A stretch of DNA of 64,000 nt, taken from Bacteroidota bacterium. GTDB taxonomy: Bacteria; Bacteroidota; Bacteroidia; Cytophagales; Cyclobacteriaceae. The notes beneath the pieces are model-generated. The model was not told the origin of the DNA. It ran no database searches and saw nothing but the letters and a program-made list of their open reading frames with translations. A program made the position numbers and the translations under genes. How positions within the stretch are numbered: position 1 is the first letter of the stretch; every line of letters begins with the position of its first letter. The stretch is taken from positions 186,001 through 250,000 of the forward strand of contig VGMW01000001.1 in NCBI GenBank assembly GCA_016866235.1, written 5' to 3'. Shown here piece after piece: positions 6,085 to 63,454 of the stretch.

Positions 6085-6552
6085 ATGAGAAAGTCAAAAC
6101 CTAAAAAGAGATACCTCCTCCCGGATCCAAAATTCAAAGATCCGATGGTAACCAAGTTTGTGAATTACCTGATGGAGCAGGGAAAGAAGAGTGTTGCTTA
6201 TTCTGTTTTCTACGATGCCATGTCATTGGTTGAAAAGAAGGCGAACGAAAGCGGACTCGAAGTTTGGAAGAGGGCGATGAACAATGTGATGCCTGCCGTA
6301 GAGGTGAAAAGCCGTCGCGTGGGTGGAGCAACATTTCAGGTTCCGGTTGAAATTCGTCCGGAGCGTAAAATCAATCTCAGCATCAAATGGATCATCGAAT
6401 TCGCCCGTGCGCGTGGTGAAAAAACGATGCAGGATAAACTTGCTGCAGAACTAATTGCAGCATCAAAAGGCGAAGGTGCCGCCATCAAAAAGAAAGACGA
6501 TACCCACCGTATGGCAGAAGCCAACAAGGCATTCTCCCATTTCAGGTTCTGA
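6085..6552 (+). CDS. rpsG: 30S ribosomal protein S7
   Basis: This 155-residue protein has the S7 features [42 protein letters not shown] and [19 protein letters not shown], with [12 protein letters not shown] at the end. It initiates assembly of the 30S head by binding the 3' domain of 16S rRNA. It lies between rpsL and fusA in the usual order. Length is normal for the family. Confidence 0.98.
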
Positions 6553-27995: not shown

Positions 27996-30900
27996 ATGAA
28001 CAGAAAAGCGACAGTGATGGAGAAATTCCAGTCCTCTTGGACTGGTATGCGGAGTTGGGTGATTCCGCTTATTCTGGCCCTGATGGGGTCGGTTCACGTG
28101 TTGGCGCAAAGTCCGCCTTACACGGTAAAACTTTCTGGTTTCAATACAGCTTCTGCAAACCTGGATCAAGCGCGCAATGGCGCTGCCGATGATCCGGTAA
28201 GTCCCGTTGACTGGGTGAATGGAAATGCAGGTGCCAGCAACGCGCATTATATCGAAGGGTTTTCAATTCCTTACCGGATTGTCATGCGAAACCTCCCGAC
28301 CACTTCACAAATTGTGGCTGCAGGAGGAGCAGATGGAAAAGTGCACATGATTCTTGAGTATGATATCCGAAACAGCAATAAGCACGCTGTTGATTACCTG
28401 ACCGGATACCAGCGACTTGAACCGCATACCCAATTCACGAACATCGATCCTACCCACCTGGCTGAGGAGGTGAATCCTCTATACGATCCGTCAACCGGAT
28501 TTTTAATTTTTAATGGCACAACTCCAACGCCCTCCATGTTCCCGATTCCTGAGCCTCCAACGCCAGGAAGTGATCCTACCGCCATGCCACGCGCCAGTTT
28601 CAACCACTTGCCACCATCAGAGCGGATGTTGGTTCTTTGGGGTGGACAAATCACCAACATCTCTTATGGTCCAGCCGGCGACCTCACCGCCAAAAATGCG
28701 CCTCAGTTAATTTATATCTCTTTCATTCCAACAGGGGGTACAGCATTGCTTTCATTCGGTGGACATATTGCCTCCCGTCTGGACTGGGGTCCAAACGAAT
28801 CCGCCTCTGGAATCAGTGGTTCACCTTACCACATGCATCTTGTGGATTGGAATCTGAATAACCTGGGCAACCAGGACAGGTCTCTTTCAACGGCTGCGGT
28901 AATAGTTTTCCCCCCATGTGAAATCTCAGGTCCAAAATGGATATGCACCAATGACTCAGGTCCGTTTATTTACACAGCCGATGTTAGTACGATGCCCGGT
29001 GCAAGGTTAAGTTATCTATGGTCACTGTTCGACAATACCGCGGGGGCCTCAATTGTATCAGGCACCCAGACTCAACAACAAGCCTATATCAATCCGGGAA
29101 CAACCGGTGGATCATTTAAAGTGAAAGTGGTGATAACGGATTTGGATACACGCGTTTCCAGTACATGTTATTTACACGACATGAACGGATCTGATTCTAT
29201 GGAGGGGGCACTACCTGTTCAGGTTGTTGCTGTTTCTGTAGATGCTGTTGCGACAGATGTTAGTTGCTATGGACTTCAAAATGGAACATTGGCTGTAACC
29301 GGATCAGGTTATTCAAGCCTGGTATTGTTTAAAGACGGAACACAACTCGGCGATACAGTCACCACCGCCGGGAGCTATACATTCACCGGACTTGCTCCGG
29401 GTAGTTATGTAGTGCGCGCCTATGCAGATTCTTTGTCATGCAATAAAGCCAGCGATCCCGATATTATCCGGCAGCCTCCTCAAGTTAGTGTCTCGGTTTC
29501 TTCAAAAGATATTACTTGTTATGGTGCTGCTGATGGTTCTGTTACCGTAACCGGATCAGGGTATACAAACCTAAAACTATTTTTAAATGGTGTTTTGTCA
29601 TCAACAGTAACCACCACCACCTCGCCATATAATTTTTCTGGTTTATCACCGGGCTCCTATTATGTAGAGGCTTCGGCACAAGGTTATCGGGGTGCAACCT
29701 GTTCCGTCACAAGCGGTACAGAGAACGTAGAACAACCTGCACAGATCACGATCAGGATAAGCAGCACGGATGTGACGTGTTATGGAGAGGGAGACGGCAG
29801 TGTTACAGCGACGGGAAGTGGATACACGTCCCTGAAGCTTTACCGCGGCAGTGAGGTGGTAGGCACGGTAACGACTACAACTTCACCATATGTTTTCTCT
29901 AACCTGACGCCTGGGGTGTATAAGGTTGAAGCCATTGCGGCTGGTAATGAGCGTGCAACCTGTAACGCGATGAGTGGTACAGAGAGCATTGAGCAACCTG
30001 AACAGGTTACAGTAAGAATTACTGCGCAGGATGTGGTTTGTAATGGTGAATCAAATGGATCAGTCACTGTGTATGGTGATGGATACTCCAGACTTGAATT
30101 GTATGATGAATCTGAAAGGGTTCAAACCTCAAGCACCAGCTCCAATCCGTATGTCTTTGAAAACTTACCGCCTGGAAGCTATAAGGTGATTGCCTTTGGA
30201 AATGGTAATCAGGGTGCTGAGTGTCAGGCTGAAAGTTCAACCCTAAGGATAAATGAGCCAGCATTAATCTCCTGTCAGATAGCGGAACCTGAGTTCGATA
30301 AACCAGTATGTGGAACGCATCAGAGCAATGTACTTGAAGCCACTGCACAAGGTGGAACAGGAACAATCACCTACAGTTGGTCTGTCAATGCCTCCAATCC
30401 TACCGATCAATCCCGCTGGGGCATATGGTCTGGCCAGGGTACGAATTCAATTATTTTCCGTGCAGGAAATTATCCTGCAACCTTTATCCTGACGGTGACC
30501 GATGTCAATGGCTGCGATTCACAATGTTCCATTGAAGTTAGAGGTTGCGCAAGTGAGTACTATTGTACCTATACGCAGGGCTTTTATGGAAATACGGGAG
30601 GCAAAGGATGCTCTGCTCAGGGTGAACAGTCAACTGCTTTACAGATGATGACCAGCGTGTTACCTTCTGGATCCACCAATTTTGGCAATGGAAGCAAACG
30701 TTTTGAGTTGTTTAGTACTGATCTCACCAATGGTAATATTTTTAAAATGTTGCCAGGCGGTAAGACACCGGCTGCTCTTAAAGGTTATGCTACCTATTCA
30801 GTAACCTCAACCTGGCCGAATGTCCCAATAGAACGAAAGGGCTCCAATGATGGTAAAATTGCCAACAACCTTCTGTCTCAAACCATGGTGCTCTATTTCA

Positions 30901-31604
30901 ATATAGGTCAGAATTTAGCTTTTAATCTTGCATCCTTAAAAATCACTGGCCCGTATCTGATTACTGCAAAAGCTGAGAATTGTGGAACCAGATTAGCGAT
31001 TCCATATGAGGACCTCTATACCATCATTCCGCAAGGTGTAATCGACTATATGTCGACCGCCTATGCTTCCAGTGGTGGAGCAACAGTTGGAAATTTACTC
31101 AGACTTGCCAACCATATTCTTGGTGGTGGTAGTGCCGGATCGCTCACACCATCAATGGTCAATTCAGCGGTAGATGCCATCAACCGTGGATTTGATGAAT
31201 GCAGGGTGTTCATTGAGTTCAGCGCTGTACAGCCTGGTATGATAGCATCCAGAAATGCTTACATCCCAAAATTTGCTGGAGCGGATGAGCTTTCGGATCA
31301 GCCTTCTGAGATGTTGAAGGACGAGCCTTCCAAGCTCAAGGCCAATGCCTATCCAAATCCATTTGGTGATAAGGCAATAATTTCCTTCACGCCGGCAGAA
31401 AATACCACCGCTACGGTTCAAGTGTTTTCCTTGAACGGTGTAAAAGTCAAGGACCTTTTCCAGGGAGCGGTAGAAGGGGGTAGGAATTATGAATTTGAAT
31501 TCAATGATTCCGCAATCGGTGGAACGGTATTCATCTACAGAATTGTGACGCCTCTTGGCTCACAGGTGGGTAGATTAATCCGAACCCGAACTGCCGAACG
31601 ATAG
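27996..31604 (+). CDS. large secreted protein with SprB-like repeats and T9SS sorting domain
   Basis: A 1202-residue surface or secreted protein. An extended signal peptide (to about residue 38, LAQ) is followed by a roughly 380-residue N-terminal region with a PKD/Ig-like end. Four repeats of about 85 residues follow, starting near 420, 504, 591 and 678, each with D-V-x-C-Y/N-G-x-x-x-G-S-V-T-x-x-G-x-G-Y and a PPGSYKV-like end; these are SprB-type repeats. Then comes an Ig-like domain, a CTYTQGFYGNTGG domain with paired cysteines, and a type A C-terminal sorting domain (YPNPFGDKAIISFTP...GVKV) used by the type IX secretion system. SprB itself is a gliding adhesin; adhesion is a likely role. 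Confidence 0.85.
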   Translation: MNRKATVMEKFQSSWTGMRSWVIPLILALMGSVHVLAQSPPYTVKLSGFNTASANLDQARNGAADDPVSPVDWVNGNAGASNAHYIEGFSIPYRIVMRNLPTTSQIVAAGGADGKVHMILEYDIRNSNKHAVDYLTGYQRLEPHTQFTNIDPTHLAEEVNPLYDPSTGFLIFNGTTPTPSMFPIPEPPTPGSDPTAMPRASFNHLPPSERMLVLWGGQITNISYGPAGDLTAKNAPQLIYISFIPTGGTALLSFGGHIASRLDWGPNESASGISGSPYHMHLVDWNLNNLGNQDRSLSTAAVIVFPPCEISGPKWICTNDSGPFIYTADVSTMPGARLSYLWSLFDNTAGASIVSGTQTQQQAYINPGTTGGSFKVKVVITDLDTRVSSTCYLHDMNGSDSMEGALPVQVVAVSVDAVATDVSCYGLQNGTLAVTGSGYSSLVLFKDGTQLGDTVTTAGSYTFTGLAPGSYVVRAYADSLSCNKASDPDIIRQPPQVSVSVSSKDITCYGAADGSVTVTGSGYTNLKLFLNGVLSSTVTTTTSPYNFSGLSPGSYYVEASAQGYRGATCSVTSGTENVEQPAQITIRISSTDVTCYGEGDGSVTATGSGYTSLKLYRGSEVVGTVTTTTSPYVFSNLTPGVYKVEAIAAGNERATCNAMSGTESIEQPEQVTVRITAQDVVCNGESNGSVTVYGDGYSRLELYDESERVQTSSTSSNPYVFENLPPGSYKVIAFGNGNQGAECQAESSTLRINEPALISCQIAEPEFDKPVCGTHQSNVLEATAQGGTGTITYSWSVNASNPTDQSRWGIWSGQGTNSIIFRAGNYPATFILTVTDVNGCDSQCSIEVRGCASEYYCTYTQGFYGNTGGKGCSAQGEQSTALQMMTSVLPSGSTNFGNGSKRFELFSTDLTNGNIFKMLPGGKTPAALKGYATYSVTSTWPNVPIERKGSNDGKIANNLLSQTMVLYFNIGQNLAFNLASLKITGPYLITAKAENCGTRLAIPYEDLYTIIPQGVIDYMSTAYASSGGATVGNLLRLANHILGGGSAGSLTPSMVNSAVDAINRGFDECRVFIEFSAVQPGMIASRNAYIPKFAGADELSDQPSEMLKDEPSKLKANAYPNPFGDKAIISFTPAENTTATVQVFSLNGVKVKDLFQGAVEGGRNYEFEFNDSAIGGTVFIYRIVTPLGSQVGRLIRTRTAER

Positions 31605-39864: not shown

Positions 39865-41046
39865 ATGACCAGTTCTGAAAATAAACGGTTGAACAGTCTT
39901 ACTGGGGAAATTACCCTCAAAGACCTGATTTCTTTCCTGAAGGAATTCAAACCAGTTAGAAAGGCCGTTTTAATTGCTTGTTTAATTCCAACCGTGCTTT
40001 TTGTAGCCCTTGGATATATTGCCAAAATCACTTCTACAAAAGAATTTGAATCTACTTGTGTTCTCTATAGCGAAGAATCTCAGGGGGGGCAGTCAGGGTC
40101 AATTCAGGCGCTCGCATTGTTGGCTGGCATAAAGGGCACAGAGCCTTCTTATGCAACTGGGGGCGATTTATATCAACTAATTCTAACCAACAAGCCGTTT
40201 CTGCTGGAGTTATCACAAACTCCCATACCTACCAGCAATTCCGGAAAATCAATTTTTCTTGGGGAGTATTTCACTGAGGACACTAATGATGATGCAATTC
40301 ATTCGACGTTTGAGGCTATTAAGAATTTTCCAAAAACAATTGTTACTCTATTCTCAGGCACCAAAGAGCCAATTAAAAAGGTAACTAAAAAGATTGGAGT
40401 AAAGCGTGATTCAATCCCTTCAAGTTTCGTAAGCAGAGCCTTAATTTCTGAATTGACAGGTGATGACAAACGAATCATTGCTATTTTATCCCAAAGAATA
40501 AAGCTTGTTCAAAACGGCAAGCTCAGTACGTTACAGGTTAAAATGCCAGATCCAGTCCTCAGTGCAGAAGCCAACAAAGTTGTCCTGGAATTGCTTCTAA
40601 AATATGCCATTCGTTTTAAGGCAAGTAAACAATTAGAAAATGTTGAGTTTCTCGAAAAGAGAGTGCATGAAGCTGAAGTCTTATATAAAGAAAGTCAGCA
40701 GAAACTGGCAAAATTCAAAGACACCAATTTCAATGTTGTTTTCCAGAGCGTGCAGGCTGAAGAACGATTTCTGGAGAGCAACTTTGCGCTTTACTCGGGA
40801 TTATATTCACAGTTGGTGGGTCAGTTGGAGCAAGCGAGGATACAACTTAAAAAAGATTCGCCGCTCTTTACAATTGTAGAACCTGTATATATCCCTGATC
40901 AGGTAATAAAAAATAATGATAAGATTTTCGCCTACTTTAAATATGGTTTTGTTATTGGTTTTTTAATTACAGGATTCATTGTCTTTAAGCGATTAAGAAT
41001 CGTCCTTAAAAACTCACAAAATTCTTTAAATGAAAACAACAGATAA
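39865..41046 (+). CDS. Wzz-like chain-length determinant protein
   Basis: A 393-residue polysaccharide co-polymerase. Membrane helices at about 34-54 (AVLIACLIPTVLFVALGY) and 355-375 (YFKYGFVIGFLITGFIVF) flank a periplasmic loop with a long coiled coil (RVHEAEVLYKESQQKLAKFKD) and the GNVR-like end (SPLFTIVEPVYIPDQV). There is no tyrosine-kinase domain. It is coupled with the next gene by a 17-bp overlap and probably interacts with the SLBB protein upstream. Confidence 0.85.
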   Translation: MTSSENKRLNSLTGEITLKDLISFLKEFKPVRKAVLIACLIPTVLFVALGYIAKITSTKEFESTCVLYSEESQGGQSGSIQALALLAGIKGTEPSYATGGDLYQLILTNKPFLLELSQTPIPTSNSGKSIFLGEYFTEDTNDDAIHSTFEAIKNFPKTIVTLFSGTKEPIKKVTKKIGVKRDSIPSSFVSRALISELTGDDKRIIAILSQRIKLVQNGKLSTLQVKMPDPVLSAEANKVVLELLLKYAIRFKASKQLENVEFLEKRVHEAEVLYKESQQKLAKFKDTNFNVVFQSVQAEERFLESNFALYSGLYSQLVGQLEQARIQLKKDSPLFTIVEPVYIPDQVIKNNDKIFAYFKYGFVIGFLITGFIVFKRLRIVLKNSQNSLNENNR

Positions 41047-42322
41047 AAAAATTGCAGTAATAGGTTTGGGTTATGTTGGACTTCCCTTGGCAATTGAATT
41101 TGGCAAGAAGTATCGGGTACTAGGTTTTGATATAGACCAGGCTCGGATTAATGAGCTGTCAACTGGAAAAGATCGGACCCGCGAAGCGGATTTAGAAGGC
41201 ATGAAAATGGCCACGGATCTGTACAAATCCAACCCTAATGTGGGCCTGACGTTTTCAAATTCACTGGAAGAGTTAAAAGCCTTTAATGTTTTTATAGTGA
41301 CAGTCCCAACGCCAATCGACCAGTTCAAGGCGCCGGATCTTACACCCTTGATAAAAGCATCCACTATGTTGGGTGGGGTACTAAAAAAAGGTGACGTTGT
41401 TATTTATGAGTCAACCGTATACCCGGGTTGTACAGAGGAGGATTGTGTTCCAGTATTAGAGAAAGCCTCTGGTTTGAAATTTAATCAGGATTTCTTTTGT
41501 GGTTATTCCCCAGAAAGAATTAACCCCGGTGATAAGGTTAACACTTTAACGAAAATAAAAAAGGTAACCTCCGGCTCAACCAGTCAAATTGCCGATTTGG
41601 TCGATGGACTGTACGCCAGCATTATTACAGCCGGCACACATAAGGCTCCCAGTATAAAAGTGGCGGAAGCCTCTAAGGCAATTGAAAACGCACAGCGAGA
41701 TGTTAATATTTCTTTTGTCAATGAGCTGGCTTTGATTTTTGACCGAATGGGAATTGACACAACGGATGTAATTGAAGCTTCGGGTACCAAATGGAATTTT
41801 CTTAAATATAAACCTGGTTTGGTTGGCGGTCATTGTATTGGGGTTGATCCCTATTACCTGGCTCATAAGGCTGAAAGCCTCGGTTATCATCCGCAGGTTA
41901 TTTTGAGTGGACGACGCGTTAACGACACCATGGGTATGTTTGTCGCCAATAAAGTGGTGAAGCTAATGATCCATAAGGGACTGAAGGTAAGTGAATCCAA
42001 GGCTTTGATTCTTGGTATAACCTTTAAAGAGGATTGCCCTGATATTAGAAATTCAAAGGTGATTGATATTTATCGAGAATTAATCCAATTCGGTATCAAT
42101 GTAGATGTCTATGATCCACATGCAGATCATCATGAAGTTAATAAGGAGTATGGTCTGAGTTTAATTGATGAGCCTGGTGAAGAATATGACGCAGTTATAC
42201 TTGCAGTGTCCCATAGTGAGTTCCGGGAATTGAAATATTCTTCCTTGATAAAAGGTAACGGTTCTGTTTTGTTTGATACAAAGTCTTTTTTAGATCGTTC
42301 AATTGTTGATGCCAGACTTTAA
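41030..42322 (+). CDS. wbpA: UDP-N-acetyl-glucosamine 6-dehydrogenase (WbpA/TviB type)
   Basis: A 430-residue nucleotide-sugar dehydrogenase. NAD site: IAVIGLGYVGLPLAIEFGKK. Active-site features: TVPTPID, ESTVYPGCTEEDCVPVLE, FCGYSPERINPGDK, the helix KVAEASKAIENAQRDVNISF and the Cys loop GLVGGHCIGVDPYYLAHKAE. The pattern matches the TviB/WbpA branch that oxidises UDP-GlcNAc to the uronic acid. It is the first of four genes that together equal the Pseudomonas wbpA-wbpE-wbpD-wbpB set. Confidence 0.9.
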   Translation: MKTTDKKIAVIGLGYVGLPLAIEFGKKYRVLGFDIDQARINELSTGKDRTREADLEGMKMATDLYKSNPNVGLTFSNSLEELKAFNVFIVTVPTPIDQFKAPDLTPLIKASTMLGGVLKKGDVVIYESTVYPGCTEEDCVPVLEKASGLKFNQDFFCGYSPERINPGDKVNTLTKIKKVTSGSTSQIADLVDGLYASIITAGTHKAPSIKVAEASKAIENAQRDVNISFVNELALIFDRMGIDTTDVIEASGTKWNFLKYKPGLVGGHCIGVDPYYLAHKAESLGYHPQVILSGRRVNDTMGMFVANKVVKLMIHKGLKVSESKALILGITFKEDCPDIRNSKVIDIYRELIQFGINVDVYDPHADHHEVNKEYGLSLIDEPGEEYDAVILAVSHSEFRELKYSSLIKGNGSVLFDTKSFLDRSIVDARL

Positions 42323-42333
42323 GTAATAGAGTC

Positions 42334-43461
42334 ATGAAAATCCAAATGGTTGACCTTAAAGGTCAATACGAAAAAATTCAATTGGAGATTGATGCTGCAC
42401 TGCTGAAAGCCATTCGTAATGCAAGTTTTATCAATGGTCCTGAGGTAGCATCTTTTACCCAAAATTTAGCATCTTATTTGGGTGGGGCCCATGTTATTCC
42501 CTGTGCTAATGGAACAGACGCCTTACAAGTGGCCATGATGGCACTTGGTTTGGAACCTGGTGATGAGGTGATCGTTCCTTCATTTACTTATGTGGCAACA
42601 GCAGAGGTAATTGGTTTACTAAAACTCACGCCGGTAATGGTGGATGTAGATCCTCTCCACTTTAATATTACAAAGACCAATATTGAAGAGGCAATCGGAC
42701 CTAAAACAAAAGCTATCGTTCCCGTTCATTTGTTTGGACAATGCGCCGATATGGAGCCGATTCTGGAACTTGCCAGAGAAAATGGTTTGTATGTAATTGA
42801 AGATACTGCGCAAGCCATAGGAGCGGTTTATACTTTTAGTGACGGAACTCAAAAGCAAGCTGGTACCATGGGCCATGTTGGATGTACATCATTCTTTCCG
42901 TCTAAGAATCTCGGCTGTTATGGTGATGGTGGGGCCATTTATACAAATGATCCAATATTGGCCGACAGAATCAGGATGGTGGCAAATCATGGGCAAGAAA
43001 AGAAATATGTGCATAAGTATATTGGTGTTAATTCAAGACTGGATACGCTACAGGCGGCCATTTTAGATATCAAATTGAAATACCTTGATCAATATAGTTC
43101 TGCACGCAGAGCTGCCGCTGATCGCTATGATCGTTTTTTAGCTGGGATTGATGAATTAAAGACACCAGTCAGAGCCAGGAATTCAACCCACGTTTTTCAT
43201 CAATATACCGTGCTGATTGCAAACAATAAAAGAGATGCATTGAAGCAATACTTGGAAGCATTAGGTATTCCGGTTATGGTCTATTATCCTGTACCACTGA
43301 ATGAGCAGGAAGCATTCAAAACCATTGGTTCAATTGTCGGCTCATTACACGAAACAAAGCGCTTATGTTCCTCTGTACTTTCGTTGCCCATGCATACAGA
43401 ATTAACGGAAGAGCAACAGGTATTTATTGCTGATTCGGTAAAGTCCTTTTTCAAATTGTAA
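42334..43461 (+). CDS. wbpE: DegT-type aminotransferase, WbpE-like
   Basis: A 375-residue PLP-dependent sugar aminotransferase. The PLP lysine is K191 in SFFPSKNLGCYGDGGA; other motifs are PCANGTDALQVAMMALGL and VPVHLFGQCADMEPI. In the WbpA-B-E-D route WbpE adds the amino group at C3 of the 3-keto-UDP-GlcNAc uronic acid. The neighbours WbpA, WbpD and WbpB give strong support for the same task here. Confidence 0.88.
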   Translation: MKIQMVDLKGQYEKIQLEIDAALLKAIRNASFINGPEVASFTQNLASYLGGAHVIPCANGTDALQVAMMALGLEPGDEVIVPSFTYVATAEVIGLLKLTPVMVDVDPLHFNITKTNIEEAIGPKTKAIVPVHLFGQCADMEPILELARENGLYVIEDTAQAIGAVYTFSDGTQKQAGTMGHVGCTSFFPSKNLGCYGDGGAIYTNDPILADRIRMVANHGQEKKYVHKYIGVNSRLDTLQAAILDIKLKYLDQYSSARRAAADRYDRFLAGIDELKTPVRARNSTHVFHQYTVLIANNKRDALKQYLEALGIPVMVYYPVPLNEQEAFKTIGSIVGSLHETKRLCSSVLSLPMHTELTEEQQVFIADSVKSFFKL

Positions 43462-43463
43462 TC

Positions 43464-44036
43464 ATGAATAATTTTATACATCCTACGGCGGTGATCGATG
43501 ATGGATGCGAGATAGGTGCCGGCACAAAAGTCTGGCATTTCTCACATATTATGCCCGGTTGTAAGTTGGGTGAAAATTGCAATATCGGTCAGAATGTTGT
43601 GATTTCTCCGGAGGTTGTATTGGGGAAAAATGTTAAAGTTCAGAACAATGTATCCTTATACACTGGGGTTACCTGTGGGGATGATGTATTCCTTGGTCCA
43701 TCCTGCGTATTCACCAATGTTACCAATCCTAGGAGTGCAGTTAACAGAAGAGGTCATTATGCCAAAACTCATGTGGGTCGAGGAGCCAGTATTGGCGCGA
43801 ATGCTACCATTGTTTGTGGTCATGATATTGGTGAATATGCATTTATTGGGGCTGGTGCTGTAGTTACCAAAACAGTACCGCCATATGCCCTTGTAGTAGG
43901 CAATCCTGCCAGGCAAGTTGGCTGGATGAGTGAATATGGACACCGGTTGGAGTTTGATTCAAATGGCCTTGCTGTTTGTAAAGAGTCCGGCCAACGTTAC
44001 AGGCGTATTGATAATTTGGTAGAAAAAATTAACTAA
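43464..44036 (+). CDS. wbpD: sugar N-acetyltransferase, WbpD-like
   Basis: A 190-residue left-handed beta-helix acetyltransferase made of hexapeptide turns (FIHPTAVIDDGCEIGAGTKVWHFSHIM, NIGQNVVISPEVVLGKNVK, VGRGASIGANATIVCGHDIG). The His in WHFSH and the GNPARQVGWMSEYGHRL end match WbpD. It acetylates the new 3-amino group to give UDP-2,3-diacetamido-2,3-dideoxy-glucuronate. It begins two bases after wbpE. Confidence 0.9.
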   Translation: MNNFIHPTAVIDDGCEIGAGTKVWHFSHIMPGCKLGENCNIGQNVVISPEVVLGKNVKVQNNVSLYTGVTCGDDVFLGPSCVFTNVTNPRSAVNRRGHYAKTHVGRGASIGANATIVCGHDIGEYAFIGAGAVVTKTVPPYALVVGNPARQVGWMSEYGHRLEFDSNGLAVCKESGQRYRRIDNLVEKIN

Positions 44037-44040
44037 TGGT

Positions 44041-44982
44041 ATGAAAAAGTTTGTTTTGATTGGAGCAGCAGGATTTATCGCGCCCCGACATATGAAGGCG
44101 GTTAAAGACACGGGTAATGAAATCGTTGCTGCACTTGATAAGTTTGACAGTGTTGGAATTTTGGATAGTTATTTTCCAGAAGCTGATTTCTTTACAGAAT
44201 TCGAGCGGTTCGACCGACATGTTGAGAAATTGAGAATGAAGGGATCTCCTATTGATTACGTTAGTGTTTGTTCACCCAACTATCTTCATGACTCACACAT
44301 AAGATTTGGATTACGAAATCATGCTGATGTCATTTGCGAAAAGCCTCTTGTGCTTAATCCATGGAACATTGACTCACTTGCTGATCTTGAAAAAGAATTT
44401 GGAAAGAAGGTTTATAACATTCTCCAACTAAGGCTTCATCCGGCTATTATTTCGCTTAGGGAAAAAATTAAAAATGGTCCGGCAGATAAAATTTATGATG
44501 TTGACTTAACATATATTACCTCCAGGGGGAGTTGGTACTATTCGAGTTGGAAAGGGGATATCCAAAAGTCTGGTGGTGTGGCTACCAATATTGGTGTTCA
44601 TTTTTACGATATGCTTTCGTGGATTTTTGGACCGGTAAATAGAAATATTGTCCATGTCCACGACCATGATCGCGCTGCGGGCTATCTGGAATTCCAGCGT
44701 GCACGAGTCAGGTGGTTTCTCAGCATAAACCACAACACCATTCCAAAAGAAGTTCGAGAGAGCGGAAAGCGCACTTACCGACTCTTATCCTTGGATGGAG
44801 ATGCCTTTGAATTCAGCGAAGGATTTACCGAACTACACACTGAAAGTTATAAACACATTTTATCTGGGAAGGGCTTTCCTTTGATGGAGGCTAAGACTGC
44901 GATAGAAATAGTTCATGAAATCCGTTCACAGAAAGCTATTGGTGCTCAAGGAGACTACCATCCTTTCGTTTCTTCTAAATAA
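44041..44982 (+). CDS. wbpB: Gfo/Idh/MocA oxidoreductase, WbpB/WlbA-like
   Basis: A 313-residue NAD-dependent oxidoreductase. NAD region: FVLIGAAGFIAPRHMKAV; active site: VICEKPLVLNP, YNILQLRLHPAI, DLTYITSRGSWYYSSWKGD and GGVATNIGVHFYDMLSWIFGP. The last two blocks are nearly diagnostic for WbpB/WlbA, which oxidises C3 of UDP-GlcNAc uronic acid. Completes the four-enzyme route with WbpA, WbpE and WbpD. Confidence 0.92.
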   Translation: MKKFVLIGAAGFIAPRHMKAVKDTGNEIVAALDKFDSVGILDSYFPEADFFTEFERFDRHVEKLRMKGSPIDYVSVCSPNYLHDSHIRFGLRNHADVICEKPLVLNPWNIDSLADLEKEFGKKVYNILQLRLHPAIISLREKIKNGPADKIYDVDLTYITSRGSWYYSSWKGDIQKSGGVATNIGVHFYDMLSWIFGPVNRNIVHVHDHDRAAGYLEFQRARVRWFLSINHNTIPKEVRESGKRTYRLLSLDGDAFEFSEGFTELHTESYKHILSGKGFPLMEAKTAIEIVHEIRSQKAIGAQGDYHPFVSSK

Positions 44983-44999
44983 AATTTCTAAACAATAGT

Positions 45000-45995
45000 A
45001 TGATAGGTGCAATGAAATTAGAAAATTCCAAAATTTTAGTAATAGGCGGAGCTGGTTTTATAGGGAGTTTTGTGGTTAAAGAATTATTAAAACATCCGGT
45101 AAAGTCGGTTATTATTTTTGACAATTTTGCACGCGGGAAGAATGAAAATATAACGGATTGTTTATCTGATCTGAGATGTAGCATATACCCGAATGGAGGA
45201 GATATTAGGGATTTGGATATTCTTGATGCGGCGATGAAAGGTGTAGATTATGTTTTTCACCTCTCTGCGATGTGGTTGCTTCATTGTAAGGATTTTCCCC
45301 GCACAGCCTTTGAGGTGAATATTGCTGGAACGTTTAATGTGCTGGAGGCATGCGTTAAAAATGGAATTAAAAAATTAATATATTCTTCATCGGCTTCCGT
45401 TTATGGTGATGCATTAGAGGTTCCAATGAGGGAGACCCATCCTTTTAATAACAAAAACTTTTACGGAGCGAGTAAAATCGCTGGCGAAGCAATGTGTACC
45501 GCATTTAATGATAGGTATAACCTACCTGTAATTGGATTGCGTTACATGAACGTTTACGGACCGGGCCAGGACCAGACTGCCGCTTATACGGGAGTTGTGC
45601 CAATCATGCTGAATAAGATTGAAGCGAATGAAGCTCCAACGATTAATGGGGATGGTTCACAGGCGTATGATTTTATTTATGTTGAAGATGTAGCACGCGC
45701 TAATGTGTGTGCACTGACTAGTGGTGCCCTACATGGATTTTATAATGTGGGCACTGAAATTCAAACCAGTATCAAAACATTATGTGATACAATTCTTCAG
45801 CTAAAGAGATCAGATCTGAAAGTTAATTATAAGCCTTACTCAGCTGATGATGCACGAGCGTTGGTACAAAACAGAATCGGATCAGCGGAAAAAGCAGAGA
45901 ACGAAATTGGATTCCGTTATCAGTATAATCTTGAAGAAGGCTTAAAAAAACTTATTGATTGGAGAATTCAAACCGGAGTAGATAAAAGAAATTAA
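45000..45995 (+). CDS. NAD-dependent nucleotide-sugar epimerase/dehydratase
   Basis: A 331-residue extended SDR. Rossmann loop VIGGAGFIGSFVVKELL; catalytic segment IYSSSASVYG and the YxxxK in FYGASKIAGE; NVYGPGQDQTAAYTGVVPIM. It resembles the UDP-glucose/UDP-GlcNAc 4-epimerase and dTDP-sugar groups, but the exact reaction cannot be settled. It may serve together with the aminotransferase at 48143. A second in-frame Met at 45012 is an alternative start. Confidence 0.85.
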   Translation: MIGAMKLENSKILVIGGAGFIGSFVVKELLKHPVKSVIIFDNFARGKNENITDCLSDLRCSIYPNGGDIRDLDILDAAMKGVDYVFHLSAMWLLHCKDFPRTAFEVNIAGTFNVLEACVKNGIKKLIYSSSASVYGDALEVPMRETHPFNNKNFYGASKIAGEAMCTAFNDRYNLPVIGLRYMNVYGPGQDQTAAYTGVVPIMLNKIEANEAPTINGDGSQAYDFIYVEDVARANVCALTSGALHGFYNVGTEIQTSIKTLCDTILQLKRSDLKVNYKPYSADDARALVQNRIGSAEKAENEIGFRYQYNLEEGLKKLIDWRIQTGVDKRN

Positions 45996-49286: not shown

Positions 49287-51182
49287 ATGTGTGGCATTGT
49301 AGGTGTATTTAATCTGAATGGTGAGCCTTTTGGTTTGCCGGCCATCAAAAAAATGGCGGACGCGATCGCGCATCGCGGACCAGACGGAGATGGCTATTTC
49401 ACTGAAGACAACATTGCAATGGCACACCGTCGGTTATCCATATTAGATGTTTCTGTTCGCGGTGCCCAGCCGATGACCTCTAAAAATGGTGACTGGGTAA
49501 TTACCTTTAATGGCTGTATCTACAATTTTTTAGAGCTCAAACAAGAATTACAGGCCAAAGGACATGAATTTTCATCTACTTCAGACACTGAAGTTATTGT
49601 GGAAGGTTTGGCGGAATATGGAACAAATTTTTTCGAAAGGCTTGATGGTATGTTCGCTGTAGGTGCCTGGCACAAAAGTGAAAAAGCGCTTTATTTATCG
49701 CGTGATCGTTTTGGTGTTAAACCACTTTATTATTGGTTTACAGGCAGAACTTTGGTATTTGCATCTGAAATCAAAGCCATCATCAAACATCCTGCGTTTC
49801 AGGTAAAGCTCAATTATTCTGCACTCAATGAATACTTCACTTTCCAGAATATGTTCACTTTCCATACCCTTTTTGATGGGGTGTGGATGTTGCCACCAGC
49901 CAATACCGTACGCATCGATGCTGCCAGTACCGGCGTGAAACATCGTTCTTGGTGGGATTATGATTTTTCGAAAACTGACGAATCCATCAGTTTTGAAGAT
50001 GCTCGAAGCCAAACAGAAGCCCTATTCATGCAGGCAGTGGCGAGGCAAATGATTTCAGATGTGCCTGTAGGTTCTTACTTGTCGGGTGGTATGGACAGTG
50101 GCTCTATCACGGCCTTGGCAAGTACCCACGTTCCGCGTTTGGCCACTTTCACCTGCGGTTTTGATATGAGTGAGGTAACCGGTGTAGAGGCCAATTACGA
50201 CGAACGCCGCGATGCAGAGCTTATGGCTAATCATTTTAAAACTGAACATTACCAACAGGTTTTGAATGCTGGTGACATCCGTTGGTCGCTTCCCCGCGTG
50301 GTTTATCACCTCGAAGATTTGCGCGTGGGGATGAGTTACCCGAATTATTACATTGCACGTCTGGCATCGAAATTTGTCAAGGTTTGTCTCCAAGGCACTG
50401 GAGGCGATGAATTGTTTGGTGGCTACCCTTGGCGTTATTACAGGGTTTTTAACTCGGTAAGCCAATCGGAGTTTTTCGACTTATATTATGATTTCTGGCA
50501 ACGTTTGGTGCCCGATAACCAGCGTGAATCACTCTTTACCACAGATGCGCGACGCAAGGTAGACTTTTACGAGCCCAGAGCAATTTTCGAACGTGTATTT
50601 ACCTTCAATTCAAAATTGAAATACGAACGGCCTGAGGACCACATTAACAATTCCTTGTATTTTGAAGCAAAAACCTTTTTACCTGGCCTATTGCTGGTAG
50701 GCGATAAGTTGTCGATGGCCAATGGTTTAGAAGAACGTTTTCCATTTCTTGATAATTCTTTGGCAGAATTCGCTCAAAAAATACCTGTAAAACATAAACT
50801 CGGCAATCTTGAAGAAATGCTGAAAATTGACGAAAACGAAGAAAAGAAAAAGAATAAAGCTTACCGGGAATTTGATGATGGTAAAAATGTTTTAAGAAAA
50901 GCTATGCTGGGTTTTATGCCAGAGAAAATAATTAATAGAAAAAAACAAGGCTTCAGTGCGCCTGACGAAAGTTGGTATCGAGGTGAAAATGCAGCCTACA
51001 TTCGTGAACTTTTACTAGAAAATAAAACGGTTTCATCCGATTTCATCAATCAAGATTACATCCGGAAAATTGTTAGTGAGCATACTGAACAACATATCAA
51101 TCATCGCTTGTTAATCTGGAGTTTTATGAATTTTGAATGGTGGTGTAGGATTTTCTTAAAAAATGAAAAATTTTCAATATGA
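49287..51182 (+). CDS. asnB: asparagine synthase-like amidotransferase (copy 1)
   Basis: A 631-residue glutamine-hydrolysing protein. Cys2 is the class II glutaminase nucleophile (MCGIVGVFN); HRGPDGDGYF, the SYLSGGMDSGSITAL PP-loop and GTGGDELFGGYPWRYY are intact. In polysaccharide loci such AsnB relatives (WbpS, WbmE) amidate sugar uronic acids rather than aspartate. The preceding WbpA-type uronic acid genes give a natural substrate, but housekeeping Asn synthesis cannot be excluded. The stop overlaps the next start by four bases (ATGA). Confidence 0.92.
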   Translation: MCGIVGVFNLNGEPFGLPAIKKMADAIAHRGPDGDGYFTEDNIAMAHRRLSILDVSVRGAQPMTSKNGDWVITFNGCIYNFLELKQELQAKGHEFSSTSDTEVIVEGLAEYGTNFFERLDGMFAVGAWHKSEKALYLSRDRFGVKPLYYWFTGRTLVFASEIKAIIKHPAFQVKLNYSALNEYFTFQNMFTFHTLFDGVWMLPPANTVRIDAASTGVKHRSWWDYDFSKTDESISFEDARSQTEALFMQAVARQMISDVPVGSYLSGGMDSGSITALASTHVPRLATFTCGFDMSEVTGVEANYDERRDAELMANHFKTEHYQQVLNAGDIRWSLPRVVYHLEDLRVGMSYPNYYIARLASKFVKVCLQGTGGDELFGGYPWRYYRVFNSVSQSEFFDLYYDFWQRLVPDNQRESLFTTDARRKVDFYEPRAIFERVFTFNSKLKYERPEDHINNSLYFEAKTFLPGLLLVGDKLSMANGLEERFPFLDNSLAEFAQKIPVKHKLGNLEEMLKIDENEEKKKNKAYREFDDGKNVLRKAMLGFMPEKIINRKKQGFSAPDESWYRGENAAYIRELLLENKTVSSDFINQDYIRKIVSEHTEQHINHRLLIWSFMNFEWWCRIFLKNEKFSI

Positions 51183-54248: not shown

Positions 54249-54842
54249 TCTTTATTTTTATTTAATCTGTAGTCAGGAAAAATGTTGTTTTCTAGGGCTA
54301 ATTAAATTCCTAATCAGCAAGGATACCTAATAAGTTGTAATATTTTGATATAGACTTTTTCGATATTGGCCTTCGCATATATTTCCCGGTTATAGCAAGA
54401 GGGTATTTTCTGAAATCTTTTTATCTTTCATTCATCTTTAATTATCCGTGGTTTGATTTTTGAAAGTTCAAAATTCCGGTTGCGAGTCAATACGTTGATC
54501 AAATGTCAAAGCACTGTTCAATTATAATTCATTTTATATTTTGTAAATGCTATTGTGCTATCAAACAATCCTGTTTTAGATATCAAAGATTATATTGTTG
54601 AGCCTCCAAAAAAAAGTGGAGTGCGATTCCAAAAATATTTAACAATTAGATTATTGTTCTGGCCTATAGAGTCACGAATATATTCTTGGGATATTTTTGA
54701 AAGATTTCGTTTCTATCATTTTTCAAAAGATATTAATAGGGCGTAAAGAATTGGGCGTAAAATTGCGGCAGCTTATTTAAGACATCTTAGTTTTAGAAAA
54801 ATTGCGGCCCGATTAATCATAAAAAAAATTTTAAAATCGATT
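54249..54842. other. 594-bp region with a possible decayed reading frame
   Basis: No confident gene. The first 300 bp show nothing. From 54555 an open frame of 63 codons (starting MLSNNPVLDIKDYIVEPPKK) ends at TAA 54744, then continues without stop for 32 codons in the same frame into ATG 54843 of the next gene. A remnant of an older gene fused upstream, or simple chance in AT-rich DNA, would both fit. Confidence 0.3.
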
Positions 54843-56979: not shown

Positions 56980-58182
56980 GTGGGAACTAATAAAAAAATA
57001 TTAATAATATCTTACTCATCACTGAAAAGTGATCCACGCGTACTGCGGCAGATTAGGATACTTGGACAGCGGTTTGAAATAATTACTTGTGGTCTTGAGC
57101 CAAGTAATTTACCATTTGTAAAACATTTTGTGCCATTTACAATCAACGGCCTCCAAATGTTTGATATTTCTAATTTTTTCAGGCGTTGGTTTTTAATTGT
57201 CTTCTATTTATTTCCAGTTCGGCTTATCAATAAGTTTCGATTATTTCACAGGCTAAGAGTCTATAAATTATACTACTGGAATCTTGGTAATTTAAAATTA
57301 GAGAGGAAGTTATTGAGGTATAATGTTGACCTAATTATAGCAAATGATCTAAATACCTTGCCTCTTGCATTAAGGGTTAGCCGAAAGTTAAAGGCTAAGG
57401 TATTATTTGATGCGCATGAATATTCTCCTCTGGAATTAGAAAATGATTCGACTTGGATGAAATGGGAATCTCCTTATCTCACATGGCTTTCTAAAAAATA
57501 TATACCCTTAGCCGACAAATGCATCACCGTGGGCTACCAAATTGCTAAAGAATATGAAAAACTAACAAAAAAGAATTTTGATGTTGTTTTGAATGCTCCA
57601 AAATTTCAGCAATTGACGCCGTCGCCCGTTAACGAAGTACTTCAATTTATTCATCACGGGGGTGCGATGAAAGCGCGAGATCTACATGTCTTGGTCGAAT
57701 GTTTTCTGCAGCTACCAGAGAACTATATCTTGAATCTTCTCTTAACAAAATCCGATCCTGAGTATTATGCGTATCTTCAAAAACTTGCGTCTAATTCAAA
57801 AAATATAAAATTTCATGATCCAGTGCCCACTGAGGATATAGCTGCATTTATTAATAAGTTCGATGTTGGTTTGGCTTATATTCCTCCAGTTAACTTCAAC
57901 TATATGTATTGTTTACCCAATAAATTCTTTGAATTTATTCAAGCTAGGTTAATGATAATCACTGGTCCTTCTCCAGAGATGGAAAAAATTACTAATGACT
58001 ATAAGCTTGGTCTCGTTACAGACGGTTTTAAGGCTGATAATTTACGAAATGCGATTTTAAGCCTTACTCCCGAAATGGTAATTAAGTATAAGCAAGCAGT
58101 TGATAATGCTGCTTTTAATTTATCGGCCAACAAGTCAATGAAAACCTTTGACAATCTAATTTTTGAACTATGTGTGGAATAA
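56980..58182 (+). CDS. glycosyltransferase family 4 (copy A of a pair)
   Basis: A 400-residue GT-B protein with GTG start. N-terminal LIISYSSLKSDPRVLRQIRIL and VDLIIANDLNTLPLALRVSRKLKAKVLFDAHEYSP are classical; C-terminal IKFHDPVPTEDIAAFINKFDVGLAYIPPVNFNYMYCLPNKFFEFIQARL closes the donor site. It is closely similar to the gene at 60027. Overlaps the following asnB by 13 bp. Confidence 0.87.
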   Translation: MGTNKKILIISYSSLKSDPRVLRQIRILGQRFEIITCGLEPSNLPFVKHFVPFTINGLQMFDISNFFRRWFLIVFYLFPVRLINKFRLFHRLRVYKLYYWNLGNLKLERKLLRYNVDLIIANDLNTLPLALRVSRKLKAKVLFDAHEYSPLELENDSTWMKWESPYLTWLSKKYIPLADKCITVGYQIAKEYEKLTKKNFDVVLNAPKFQQLTPSPVNEVLQFIHHGGAMKARDLHVLVECFLQLPENYILNLLLTKSDPEYYAYLQKLASNSKNIKFHDPVPTEDIAAFINKFDVGLAYIPPVNFNYMYCLPNKFFEFIQARLMIITGPSPEMEKITNDYKLGLVTDGFKADNLRNAILSLTPEMVIKYKQAVDNAAFNLSANKSMKTFDNLIFELCVE

Positions 58183-60020
58183 CTGGAGTAATTAATGCTA
58201 GGGGTAGGATTGACTCAACTGAGATTTGTAGAAAAATGTCAGAAGCAATAGCACATCGTGGACCAGATGGGGACGGTTACTGGTGTAACATAAATTCTAC
58301 TGTGGCACTGGCCCACAGGAGATTGTCAATAATTGATTTGTCAAGCTCCGCCGATCAGCCGATGTTCGTCGCTGGTCGATATACAATAGTTTTTAATGGC
58401 GAGATATATAATTATCTGGAGTTAAAAAAAATTTTAATTGAATACGGGTATTCATTTTTAACTGAATCTGATACTGAAGTTTTGGTAGCGATGTATCAGC
58501 ACTATGGGGTTCAATGTTTGGATTACTTAGACGGGATGTTTGCATTTGTACTCTACGATCAACTAGAAGATTTAATTTTTATTTCTAGAGACAGATTTGG
58601 AGAGAAGCCATTCTATTATTCAATTGACAATGATATATTTTACTTTTCTAGTGAGATTAAGTCTTTTTGGAAAATTGGGTTGCCTAAAATCGTGGATGAT
58701 GAGATGCTTGGATATTTCCTACACTATGCGCAAGTCCATCATCCTCACAATAATTCAAAAACCTTTTTTAAAAATATAATTAAACTTAAACCCGCTCACT
58801 ACTTATTTGGCACGCCACAAAATTTATTTAAGGCTTCTCAAATTCAATATTGGAGATTGCCCGAGAATCGTGACACATCTTATGATAGCTTGTCAGAAAA
58901 AGAGATTTTTAATAAATTTTATATTCTCTTTGAAACCTCTGTAAAAAGGAGGCTTCGTAGTGATGTCCCTGTTGGAAGTAGTTTGAGCGGCGGTTTAGAT
59001 TCCTCTTCCGTTGTTTGTATGATTCATCAGCTTAAAAGGGAATCGAATATTTCGCAGTCAACGTTTAGTGCAAGATTTCCTGGTTTTGTAAAAGATGAAG
59101 GCAACTTCATGAAATTCGTAATCGACGCAACAAACACTAGTGCTTTTTTTGCTTTTCCTGATAAAGAGGGTTTCTTAAGTAACTTTTCAACCATGGTTTT
59201 TCATCAGGATGAGCCATTTGGCAGTGGAAGTATTTATGCGCAGTTTGAGGTTATGAGGTTAGCGAAAGAAAAATCAGTTACGGTTTTACTTGATGGTCAA
59301 GGTGCTGATGAAATGCTTGGTGGTTATAGTTACTATCGAGACACTTTGAATGCACAAAACTTTGTACACTCACTTGGTCCTCAAGTCTCGCCAAATACAC
59401 CGCCAATGTCCGCTAGGCAAATGCTCAAGGCGTTTATAAAATCTAAAGCACCTGGTATTCTGGATGTATACCGTGGCTTAAAAATAAAATCTGCATCTGG
59501 AATTATCTATTCTCCTTATAGTAAGGAGTTTTCATATTTTTTGAAGAAGTTGAAATCTCCTTATCCCAATCACACCTCTCTATATGAGCATTTGCGCCAT
59601 GACTTAACATCTGGCAATTTGGAAGACCTCTTACGATATGCTGACAGGAATAGCATGGCCCATAGTCGTGAAGTTAGGTTGCCTTTTTTGAATCATCAAT
59701 TGGTTGAATTCGTCTTAGCCTTAAACGATTCGTATAAAATTAATGGCGAATGGACTAAATGGGTTCAGAGAAAATCAATGTCTCGGATAATGCCTAATGA
59801 AATAACCTGGCGTAAGGATAAAATAGGATATGAGCCACCCCAACAAAGTTGGATGGATGATATTGATTTTAAAGAACGTGTCATGGATTCCAAAAATATT
59901 TTATTTAAAAACGGAATAATTAATAAGCGCGAAAAAGAAATGACACCAACTTCTGCTGGTTCGAATCAGCGTGGTGATAATAGTTGGGCCTATTTAATGT
60001 CAGGAGTGCTTTTTGAGTAA
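58170..60020 (+). CDS. asnB: asparagine synthase-like amidotransferase (copy 2)
   Basis: A 616-residue paralogue of the gene at 49287, with the same catalytic parts: Cys2 (MCGITGVIN), HRGPDGDGYW, the SLSGGLDSSSVV PP-loop and DGQGADEMLGGYSYY. It stands between two related glycosyltransferases. A locus with several AsnB copies is more easily explained by amidation of different sugar acids than by asparagine synthesis. Confidence 0.92.
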   Translation: MCGITGVINARGRIDSTEICRKMSEAIAHRGPDGDGYWCNINSTVALAHRRLSIIDLSSSADQPMFVAGRYTIVFNGEIYNYLELKKILIEYGYSFLTESDTEVLVAMYQHYGVQCLDYLDGMFAFVLYDQLEDLIFISRDRFGEKPFYYSIDNDIFYFSSEIKSFWKIGLPKIVDDEMLGYFLHYAQVHHPHNNSKTFFKNIIKLKPAHYLFGTPQNLFKASQIQYWRLPENRDTSYDSLSEKEIFNKFYILFETSVKRRLRSDVPVGSSLSGGLDSSSVVCMIHQLKRESNISQSTFSARFPGFVKDEGNFMKFVIDATNTSAFFAFPDKEGFLSNFSTMVFHQDEPFGSGSIYAQFEVMRLAKEKSVTVLLDGQGADEMLGGYSYYRDTLNAQNFVHSLGPQVSPNTPPMSARQMLKAFIKSKAPGILDVYRGLKIKSASGIIYSPYSKEFSYFLKKLKSPYPNHTSLYEHLRHDLTSGNLEDLLRYADRNSMAHSREVRLPFLNHQLVEFVLALNDSYKINGEWTKWVQRKSMSRIMPNEITWRKDKIGYEPPQQSWMDDIDFKERVMDSKNILFKNGIINKREKEMTPTSAGSNQRGDNSWAYLMSGVLFE

Positions 60021-61174: not shown

Positions 61175-62232
61175 ATGATGAAAATTATCCTTATCGTTGG
61201 AGCTCGTCCGCAATTTATAAAACATTTTCCGCTCGAAATTGCTCTGGCTAAAATGCTTAACGTTGTGACTATTCATACAGGTCAACATTATGATTCTAAT
61301 ATGAGCGATATTTTTTCAATGACCTAGGAATTTCCAGACCTAATTATCTTTTAAGTCTTGTGAAGACATCACATGGTGGTCAAACAGCTGAGATGTTGCA
61401 GCAAATTGAAGGTATACTTTTTCAGGAAAAGCCTGATGCAGTTTTGGTTTATGGGGATACTAATTCAACTTTGGCAGGAGCATTAGCAGCAGTAAAAATC
61501 CAAATCCCTGTTATCCATGTCGAAGCTGGCTTAAGAAGTTATAATAAAGAAATACCAGAAGAGATTAATCGAATAATGACTGACCATGTCTCTACACTTT
61601 TGTTCTGTTCCTCGCCAAATGGAATTTTAAATTTGCAATCAGAAGGAATTACTAAAGGAGTCTTTGATTGTGGTGATTTAATGAAAGATGCCTTGATTTT
61701 GCTACAACATAGACTTCAAGATTCTGTCAAGGAAAAATATATTTTTGCGACTTTTCATCGACCTTACAATATCGATAGGATTGAAAGACTCACTCAAATC
61801 CTTGACATCTTAAATAACCTGTCAGTAAAAGTAATTTTTCCGCTACACCCAAGAACCAGAAAAGCTATCAACAGTAATAATCTGAAGTTGTCTGATTACA
61901 AAAATATCCGTTTTATTAATCCTGTTGGTTATATCGATAGTTTAAGATTTCAAAAATATTCTGATTGTGTTATTACTGATTCTGGTGGTATTCAGAAAGA
62001 GGCTTATTGGTTAAAAAGAAAGTGTATTACAATTCGCAGTGAAACTGAGTGGATCGAGACATTAAAAGGCAGCTGGAATGAGCTTATTTTTGATCATTTG
62101 CCATTTATTGGCTCAGCTTTGAGAAATACACCAATTGAAAGTGAATATCAAACTAGTCTTTATGGAGAAGGTGATGCTTCCGGGCAAGTATCTAAAACTA
62201 TTTTTACGTTTTTAAAATCTCTTAAAAAGTAA
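61175..62232 (+). pseudogene. UDP-GlcNAc 2-epimerase-family gene (WbpI/WecB-like) with one-base frameshift
   Basis: The first frame reads from ATG 61175 (KIILIVGARPQFIKHFPLE, TGQHYDSNMSDIF) and stops at TAG 61325. The second frame, open from about 61315 to 62232, gives FFNDLGISRPNYLL, SHGGQTAEML, VYGDTNSTLAGALAAV, HVEAGLRSYNKEIPEEINR, TDSGGIQKEAYWLKRK and TEWIET. The break is a run of six T at 61311-61316; a seventh T would restore one 352-residue frame, which is the length of WbpI. WbpI epimerises the WbpABDE product to the ManNAc3NAcA form. Real mutation, phase-variable switch and sequencing error are all possible. Confidence 0.85.
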
Positions 62233-62412: not shown

Positions 62413-62442
62413 TCCCCGCGTAGTGCAATCTTTGGATTGTCT

Positions 62443-63454
62443 ATGGCCAAAACTTACAACCACCTCGGTTCGGCACAAAGGTATCGAATCGAAGCCTTTA
62501 TGAAATCAGGCTTGAAACAAAAGGAAATTGCCGAGAAACTCGGTGTACACCCTTCTACCATTAGCCGGGAACTTAATCAGAATACACCTAAACGAGGCTG
62601 CCTTGCCGGAATTTATGATGCCGATAATGCTCAACGAAGGACCCGCTTGCGACATTCCATCAAGCCTAAGCATCAGGTATTTGACCATGCTATGAAGCAA
62701 ATGGTAAAGAGGTACTTGGAGAATGAAAAATGGAGTCCTGAGCTTATTAGTAAATGCCATGAGGGCCCAATGGTCAGTCATGAGTGGATTTATCAATGGA
62801 TCTGGAATTGTAAGTTCAGTAACAAGCGAAATGACCGGCCATACAAGGGTCTATATGAATATCTACGGCATGGGCGCAGACGCCGAAAAAGGGGCATCAG
62901 GCATGATAATCGAGGAGTAATACCAAATCGAATACCGATTGAAATGCGACCTGCAGTAGTTGGGAAAAGACGAAGAATTGGAGATTTGGAAGTTGATCTG
63001 TTGATGGGTAAAAAGCACAAAGGAGCGATCCTGGTAATGACCGACCGAGGTAATGACCGACCGAGCCACCTTGCACACCAAACTGCTTAAGCTAAAGAAC
63101 AAAGAATCAGAAACGGTTTATGAGGCCTCTGTGAAATATCTTATGGAGAGTAATTACCCTATCAGGACACACACCTTTGATAACGATAAGGCATTTAGTG
63201 CCCATGAAAGTATTTGCAACAAACTTGGAGCTAAGAGTTACTTCACAAGGCCCTACACCAGTCAGGACAAAGGCACCGTTGAAAATCGAATTGGAGTGCT
63301 GCGAAGGTTTTTTCCAAAAGGTATAGATTTGAAAAAGGTAACTCACCATCAGGTTTCCAGAGCAGAAGACTTACTAAACAACAGACCAGTAAAAAAGTTT
63401 AACTATTTAACCCCTAACCAAGTGCTACAGGGAAAAATTGCACTTATTACTTGA
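62443..63454 (+). pseudogene. IS30-family transposase broken by a 16-bp tandem duplication
   Basis: The first frame from ATG 62443 gives the IS30 N-terminal helix-turn-helix (MAKTYNHLGSAQRYRIEAF, GLKQKEIAEKLGVHPSTISR), and RRRRIGDLEVDLLMG carries the first catalytic Asp before the frame runs off to a stop at 63090. The unit GGTAATGACCGACCGA occurs twice in a row (63033-63048, 63049-63064). With one copy removed the frame runs through to 63454 (ATLHTKLLKLKNKESETVYE, HTFDNDKAFSAHE with the second Asp, and KGTVENRIGVLRRFFPKG with the Glu). The repaired protein would have all DDE residues. Confidence 0.88.

Follow-up and report, generated by a model that had tools for sequence, protein, structure and literature searches.

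The window (the whole 64,000-nucleotide stretch of DNA analyzed here) carries a WbpI-type sugar 2-epimerase gene, needed for one form of a surface sugar, at 61175-62232, whose two reading frames part at a run of six T at 61311-61316. We put at roughly 0.5 the probability that this break is a real and recent loss of one base from the run, inactivating the only WbpI-type gene detected in the genome, and we consider this reading more likely than an error of the assembly. The broken gene consists of the following parts:

61175..61327, + strand: 5′ piece of the broken WbpI-type 2-epimerase gene, 50 codons and then TAG; 47 amino acids match residues 3-50 of chain 8sxy_A
61311..61316, + strand: T6 run where the frames part; homologs have a conserved Phe-Phe here
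61318..62232, + strand: 3′ piece in the other frame, 304 codons open; Epimerase_2 (PF02350), 267.6 bits

The 5′ frame opens with the ATG at 61175 and closes after 50 codons with the TAG at 61325-61327, the open reading frame listed in the 3′ frame starts at a GTG at 61360 and encodes 290 amino acids, and no single open reading frame covers the gene. The spacing from anchor to anchor across the T run is 53 bases here versus 54 in homologs aligned at the same anchor residue, and the gene is therefore one base short. When solved structures were searched, the 47 residues of the 5′ piece aligned with residues 3-50 of chain 8sxy_A (E 1.8e-8) and the 3′ piece with residues 53-356 of the same chain (E 4.8e-72), which identifies the two pieces as adjacent parts of one protein; judged by sequence comparison, the match of both to one chain is far beyond chance. 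The sequence-only reading had claimed that a T6 run breaks a WbpI/WecB-like gene, and the run, its coordinates and the reading frames all proved to be as it described them.

The 3′ piece scores 267.6 bits against a cut-off of 30.6 for the Epimerase_2 family, and with the 5′ piece the family sequence spans the whole protein. The best solved relative of both pieces, matched nearly end to end, is the Thermus UDP-2,3-diacetamido-glucuronic acid 2-epimerase, which carries out the WbpI reaction. Scores of the 3′ piece were 246 bits against the UDP-GlcNAc3NAcA 2-epimerase, 199 against the UDP-GlcNAc 2-epimerase 4neq and 102 against 1f6d. This order was reversed for a control homolog of the other type from the genus (L019; 301 bits for 4neq versus 246 for 8sxv), and a homolog placed on the same side of the tree as the window gene (L009) scored 412 bits against the UDP-GlcNAc3NAcA 2-epimerase versus 293 against 4neq. 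A FastTree phylogeny of the 3′ region joined the window piece to an Arcicella sequence (L033; support 0.98) and then to G296 (0.77), with L019 across the midpoint root; among named homologs an Arcicella sequence is nearest, and the best identity to a named homolog is 53%. On these comparisons the gene is of the WbpI type, closer to UDP-GlcNAc3NAcA than to UDP-GlcNAc 2-epimerases, with a predicted activity. The genome (2.77 Mb in 12 contigs) is Bacteroidota-like by its type IX sorting domains and by the Arcicella sequence as the nearest named homolog of the gene. A single Epimerase_2 place was detected in it; as its completeness is 95%, another 2-epimerase may be encoded in the part that is missing. 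The WbpI-type identity proposed earlier is thus upheld, 8sxy_A being the best match of both pieces and the gene the sole Epimerase_2 gene detected. The gene is like the Thermus thermophilus enzyme (WP_011172736, PDB 8SXY) and Pseudomonas aeruginosa WbpI in its sequence, in having WbpA, WbpB, WbpD and WbpE in the cluster and in having HisH, HisF2 and WbpG downstream; it differs in that its frame is interrupted and that ~16 kb and many genes lie between it and WbpA-E-D-B.

The surrounding polysaccharide cluster includes the following genes:

41030..42322, + strand: WbpA-type UDP-GlcNAc 6-dehydrogenase; TIGR03026, 387.5 bits, cut-off 189.8
42334..43461, + strand: WbpE-type aminotransferase; best solved relative WbpE 3nu7, E 7e-97
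43464..44036, + strand: WbpD-type N-acetyltransferase; best solved relative 3mqg, a lipopolysaccharide biosynthesis acetyltransferase, E 9e-65
44041..44982, + strand: WbpB-type 3-dehydrogenase; WbpB 3oa2, E 1.1e-113, and 3o9z, E 1e-98
45000..45995, + strand: NAD-dependent sugar-nucleotide epimerase/dehydratase; PF01370, 196.7 bits
46001..48138, + strand: Wzm/Wzt-like polysaccharide ABC transporter, permease and ATPase; weak Wzm match below cut-off, ABC_tran over cut-off
58170..60020, + strand: asparagine-synthase-like amidotransferase, with two more in the cluster; exceeds the TIGR01536 cut-off at 437.3 bits
60027..61172, + strand: putative glycosyltransferase, 2 bases upstream of the epimerase; weak TuaH match below cut-off, no Pfam match
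62437..63454, + strand: IS30-family transposase in two frames; 16-bp tandem duplication at ~63033; the only place detected in the genome
63734..64000, + strand: start of the third asparagine-synthase-like gene, which runs past the window

The earlier view of an otherwise complete WbpABDE-type pathway holds for WbpB, WbpD and WbpE by their solved relatives, and for WbpA at the level of a nucleotide-sugar dehydrogenase only; with WbpA read at that level, all four accompany the epimerase gene. The WbpA-type gene scored 544.6 bits with its best equivalog model, TviB, below the cut-off of 592, shares 61-64% identity with WbpA of ten genus loci and had no solved relative at E 1e-60 in the search of solved structures. 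The WbpB-type gene is the only place detected in the genome at E 1e-40, and the ABC_tran match of the transporter ATPase lies at C1:233038-233433. The three asparagine-synthase-like amidotransferases lie at 49287-51182, at 58170-60020 and from 63734 onward; for the two of these that were scanned, the second-best model was XrtA/PEP-CTERM TIGR03108, below its cut-off, a family discussed beside WbpS in the available excerpt of PMC7468200. Beyond the window the third of these genes is followed by a putative glycosyltransferase and then by HisH, HisF2 and WbpG (L031:6870-9388, or 66870-69388 in window numbering, on the same contig), which are acetamidino modification genes in open frames that match their families (HisF2, 349.9 bits, cut-off 310; WbuX-type amidotransferase, 277.3 bits, cut-off 203.2). 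The WbpE, WbpD, WbpB and asparagine-synthase-like genes are likewise in open frames and match their families. The gene set resembles the P. aeruginosa O5 B-band cluster. As to relatives, the Arcicella homolog L033 lies within ~7 kb of WbpB, WbpD and WbpE, and G296 has an unbroken WbpI-type homolog beside HisH, HisF2 and WbpG. The IS30 gene, 205 bp downstream of the epimerase, owes its break to the duplication and not to a homopolymer; a search of the genome with the rve model PF00665 gave no match although the window carries IS30, and its negative result is therefore uninformative. Upstream of the cluster, 27996-31604 encodes a protein of 1202 aa that contains SprB repeats and has a weakly matching type IX sorting tail (25.4 bits, below the cut-off of 27).

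WbpB (E at most 1e-40) was found in 47 of the 62 genomes of the genus, the window genome included. Epimerase_2 over the cut-off was absent from five of the 62, and WbpB was present in all five (G276, G238 and G001, 96-100% complete; G641 and G012, 73-76% complete). The order WbpA-E-D-B was kept in each of the ten genus loci inspected, a chosen and not a random set (nine besides the query locus). The genus loci L177-L186 have an operon of WbpA-galE-WbpE-WbpD-WbpB with rfb genes after WbpB in most, where the stretch reaches; the window genome instead has the Wbp set inside the polysaccharide cluster, its genes sharing 58-73% identity with those of G276. HisF2 exceeded its cut-off in 19 of the 62 genomes. 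The survey suggests that WbpA-E-D-B is a widespread set in the genus and WbpI an accessory. Because the set is widespread and occurs without WbpI, the break would close one branch and not the whole pathway; to say that the frameshift switches the pathway off is too strong, since all five genus genomes lacking Epimerase_2 over the cut-off keep WbpB.

A comparable arrangement is found in Porphyromonas gingivalis, for which the available excerpts of PMC4031482 and PMC7468200 give wbpA, wbpB, wbpD and wbpE homologs and no wbpI homolog, and describe WbpABED as feeding a linking sugar of type IX secretion that is gluco-configured. The window genome resembles the P. gingivalis Wbp/Vim system in combining type IX sorting domains (12 over the cut-off) with WbpA, WbpB, WbpD and WbpE, in having no working 2-epimerase as assembled and in the asparagine-synthase-like amidotransferases of its cluster. 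It differs in that the wbp genes of P. gingivalis are scattered and, in those excerpts, come without a wbpI homolog, whereas the cluster here also has acetamidino genes. UDP-GlcNAc3NAcA would then probably have a use without WbpI, and, by analogy with P. gingivalis, the window genome may make a type IX linking sugar. In Tannerella forsythia the linking sugar is manno-configured, a 2-N-glycyl, 3-N-acetylmannuronic acid, and its epimerase, BFO_2566, is a prediction in the excerpt available (PMC7468200); this manno Wbp product illustrates a possible state here if the epimerase worked on a linking sugar. The comparison is limited in that the epimerase is broken here and that a linking sugar is known there and none is known here.

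Apart from the single base, the epimerase gene is well preserved. Among 61 near-invariant columns, defined as conserved in at least 95% of 115 intact homologs, the two window pieces keep 58, differ at two and have a gap at one (58 of 60 scorable), and the 5′ piece keeps 12 of 12. The intact homologs themselves miss none of these positions in 82 cases, one in 17 and at least two in 16. Further inactivating mutations, which the sequence-only reading had named as the mark of plain decay, were looked for in the 304-codon 3′ piece and none was found. Since the near-invariant positions are kept, there is no sign of decay beyond the one base.

The position of the break is a common one for long runs in this family. 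Both pieces were found in 127 of 137 homologous loci (the window not counted), and 125 of the 127 are in one frame; the two others are L027 of genome G018, broken at the same run in a noisy assembly, and L080, broken elsewhere. Nearly all homologs aligned have Phe-Phe at the site, encoded with T runs of 2 to 8. Of 119 homologs, 56 have 6-8 T at the site (at least six T in 40 of the 71 from the genus or order and in 16 of the 48 named ones), all in frame there, and 118 of the 119 are in one frame throughout, L080 being in frame at the run and broken further on. The 119 loci are the 137 less 18, namely ten found as one piece, seven in-frame loci that did not match the Phe-Phe motif (including L020, with an N at the site, and L154, with Phe-Phe in an altered motif) and L027 of G018. 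In the 115 intact homologs this one site holds 55 of 295 runs of at least six bases and 22 of 84 runs of at least seven, which makes it the family's natural weak point, such that repeated hits there need no selection. In a 334-kb sample of the genome itself (the window plus 30 kb of flanking sequence and 12 stretches that were chosen; stop-to-stop frames of 250 codons or more make up 271,665 bases of it), these long open frames contain 621 runs of at least six of any base, of which 177 are at least seven and 40 are 8 or 9 long; the count is biased towards unbroken genes. With homolog lengths of 2-8 and 621 comparable runs, the window T run is neither unusual nor specially kept, and it is neither conserved as a tract nor longer than coding needs.

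Some other irregularities were seen among the homologs. The 2-epimerase of Ca. Brocadia pituitae, a complete genome, shifts frame at a different site (L080, ~6100-6140). Locus L139 (G009:C1:1021500-1023500) has a duplicate 5′ Epimerase_2 fragment less than 2 kb from an intact gene, and we rejected it as a frame break because it duplicates part of the 5′ end. In G023 (L020) the run contains a single N, which we did not take for run variation, N being scattered across that locus.

The alternative that stands up best, possible though clearly behind a real mutation, is a sequencing or assembly error, in which the WbpI gene of the cell is intact and the assembly is one base short in the run. Homopolymer errors of one base are a known fault of assemblies, and both the lack of erosion and the open frames of the downstream acetamidino genes fit an intact gene. 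G018, of the same genus, shows such an assembly, with five frame changes in galE, WbpE and WbpB within ~4 kb of its Wbp operon besides the epimerase (L027) broken at the same run as the window gene. Against an error stands the quality of the window genome's own assembly: a homology-based frame-break test gave five merged sites in 10.6 kb of G018 versus one in 27.6 kb of the window genome, that one being the 2-epimerase gene itself, all 32 full ABC_tran domains and five additional partial matches lie in open frames, and the 621 runs of at least six bases also count against it, with their bias towards unbroken genes. The IS30 gene, the second frame-broken gene of the window, was missed by this test. 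A codon-score frame-break detector was discarded as insensitive, as it returned 0 events everywhere, including in G018 with its certain breaks. Its Viterbi version treats breaks as overlaps between genes and served only for listing genes and adjacent pairs, and the run counts are independent of it. Wider scans of the family (295 genomes) and the order (390 genomes) give only the best-scoring matches and are silent on broken copies. We rejected the same-site break of G018 as support for a hot spot or a switch in view of the frame changes in three other genes, and an assembly so full of frame errors offers no clear evidence of a switch. The G018 assembly, sampled at loci L095 and L185, has many frame breaks, and broken genes there are not reliable at face value.

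Considerably less probable is the contingency switch that the sequence-only reading had proposed, in which slippage in the run reversibly toggles WbpI and the surface sugar alternates between gluco and manno forms. Polysaccharide genes are frequent targets of phase variation, the run lies close to the 5′ end of an otherwise uneroded gene, and either state may be viable because WbpB genomes with and without Epimerase_2 exist in the genus. The closest precedent is Helicobacter bizzozeronii, where, in the excerpt available (PMC3234257), a UDP-GlcNAc 2-epimerase with a frameshift that splits it at a 5′ C14 run is tabled among potentially phase-variable genes. The likeness is a 2-epimerase split at a 5′ homopolymer; the tract there is C14 versus T6 here, and a mismatch-repair defect is reported there, whereas MutS here is in an open 870-aa frame and its gene therefore gives no sign of a mutator. 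Short runs can revert too, as Listeria monocytogenes inlA passes from A6 to A7 at about 1e-7 according to the part of PMC2831843 available. That case shares with ours a run of six or seven bases near the 5′ end in which one base fewer truncates the product, and differs in that isolate variation and reversion were measured there, while the break here is known from one assembly. The proposal is weakened by the properties of the run, which covers a conserved Phe-Phe, varies from 2 to 8 in homologs and sits at a site with 55 of the 295 long runs of the intact homologs, by the 621 comparable runs and the many longer ones in the genome's own open frames, by the open MutS frame, and by the fact that the sole same-site parallel, G018, is a noisy assembly. 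Among the papers examined from the matches listed, in a literature with thin coverage of subscription journals, none reports a WbpI frameshift or switch. A more specific version, in which the run reversibly switches epimers where the metabolic pathway branches, between a gluco-only state and one with an added manno supply, strikes us as slightly more doubtful still. If it were true, the gluco-only state would correspond to a type IX linking sugar like that of P. gingivalis, the alternative state would add either a manno acetamidino polymer similar to P. aeruginosa O5 or a manno linking sugar similar to that of T. forsythia, and the stereochemistry of a protein anchor or an O-polysaccharide would be changed by slippage in one gene.

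Older decay, with the epimerase an established pseudogene in a cluster that is losing function, is improbable. The frame-broken IS30 copy 205 bp downstream and the 594-bp stretch at 54249-54842, whose only listed open reading frame has 63 aa and no Pfam match, would fit a decaying region. Yet the IS30 break is that gene's own duplication and lies outside the epimerase gene, the 3′ piece keeps its invariant positions with no second inactivating change in its 304 codons, and WbpE, WbpD, WbpB, the asparagine-synthase-like genes, HisH, HisF2 and WbpG are in open frames. Recoding, by which ribosomal frameshifting or transcriptional slippage at the run would yield full-length enzyme, is more improbable yet: a T-rich run is a possible slip site and transcriptional slippage occurs at poly(A) tracts in Buchnera (PMC2831843, in the part available), but 118 of the 119 Phe-Phe loci are in one frame, L080 is in frame at the run and broken elsewhere, and among the 127 two-piece loci noisy G018 alone shares the break.

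We thus favor a recent one-base loss as the cause of the break. In this mechanism, one base was lost from the T run over the conserved Phe-Phe and the WbpI-type gene was thereby inactivated; neither the 50-codon truncated product nor a 290-aa product from reinitiation downstream would be active, as expected from a break that cuts the N-terminal motifs off from the remainder of the protein. The UDP-GlcNAc3NAcA that WbpA, WbpB, WbpE and WbpD produce would no longer be converted to the manno form, and the four enzymes would stay useful through a WbpI-independent branch, most likely leading to a gluco sugar such as a type IX linking sugar, and/or to a polymer bearing the gluco epimer. Against this reading, HisH, HisF2 and WbpG are in open frames and such genes accompany an unbroken homolog in G296, which suggests that the manno branch operated until recently or operates even now. 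On the favored reading the allele would be an ordinary loss-of-function allele at a mutable site and not an evolved switch.

The state of the gene fits a recent accident or a fault of the assembly better than it fits an evolved on/off switch. If the break is an assembly error, the case cautions against inferring switches from single assemblies. The enzymes upstream of the epimerase step may well keep a use without the epimerase, and if the break is real, this genome would hold a natural WbpI-null that keeps the rest of the pathway, which would allow one to ask what role the gluco product has in Bacteroidota with type IX secretion.
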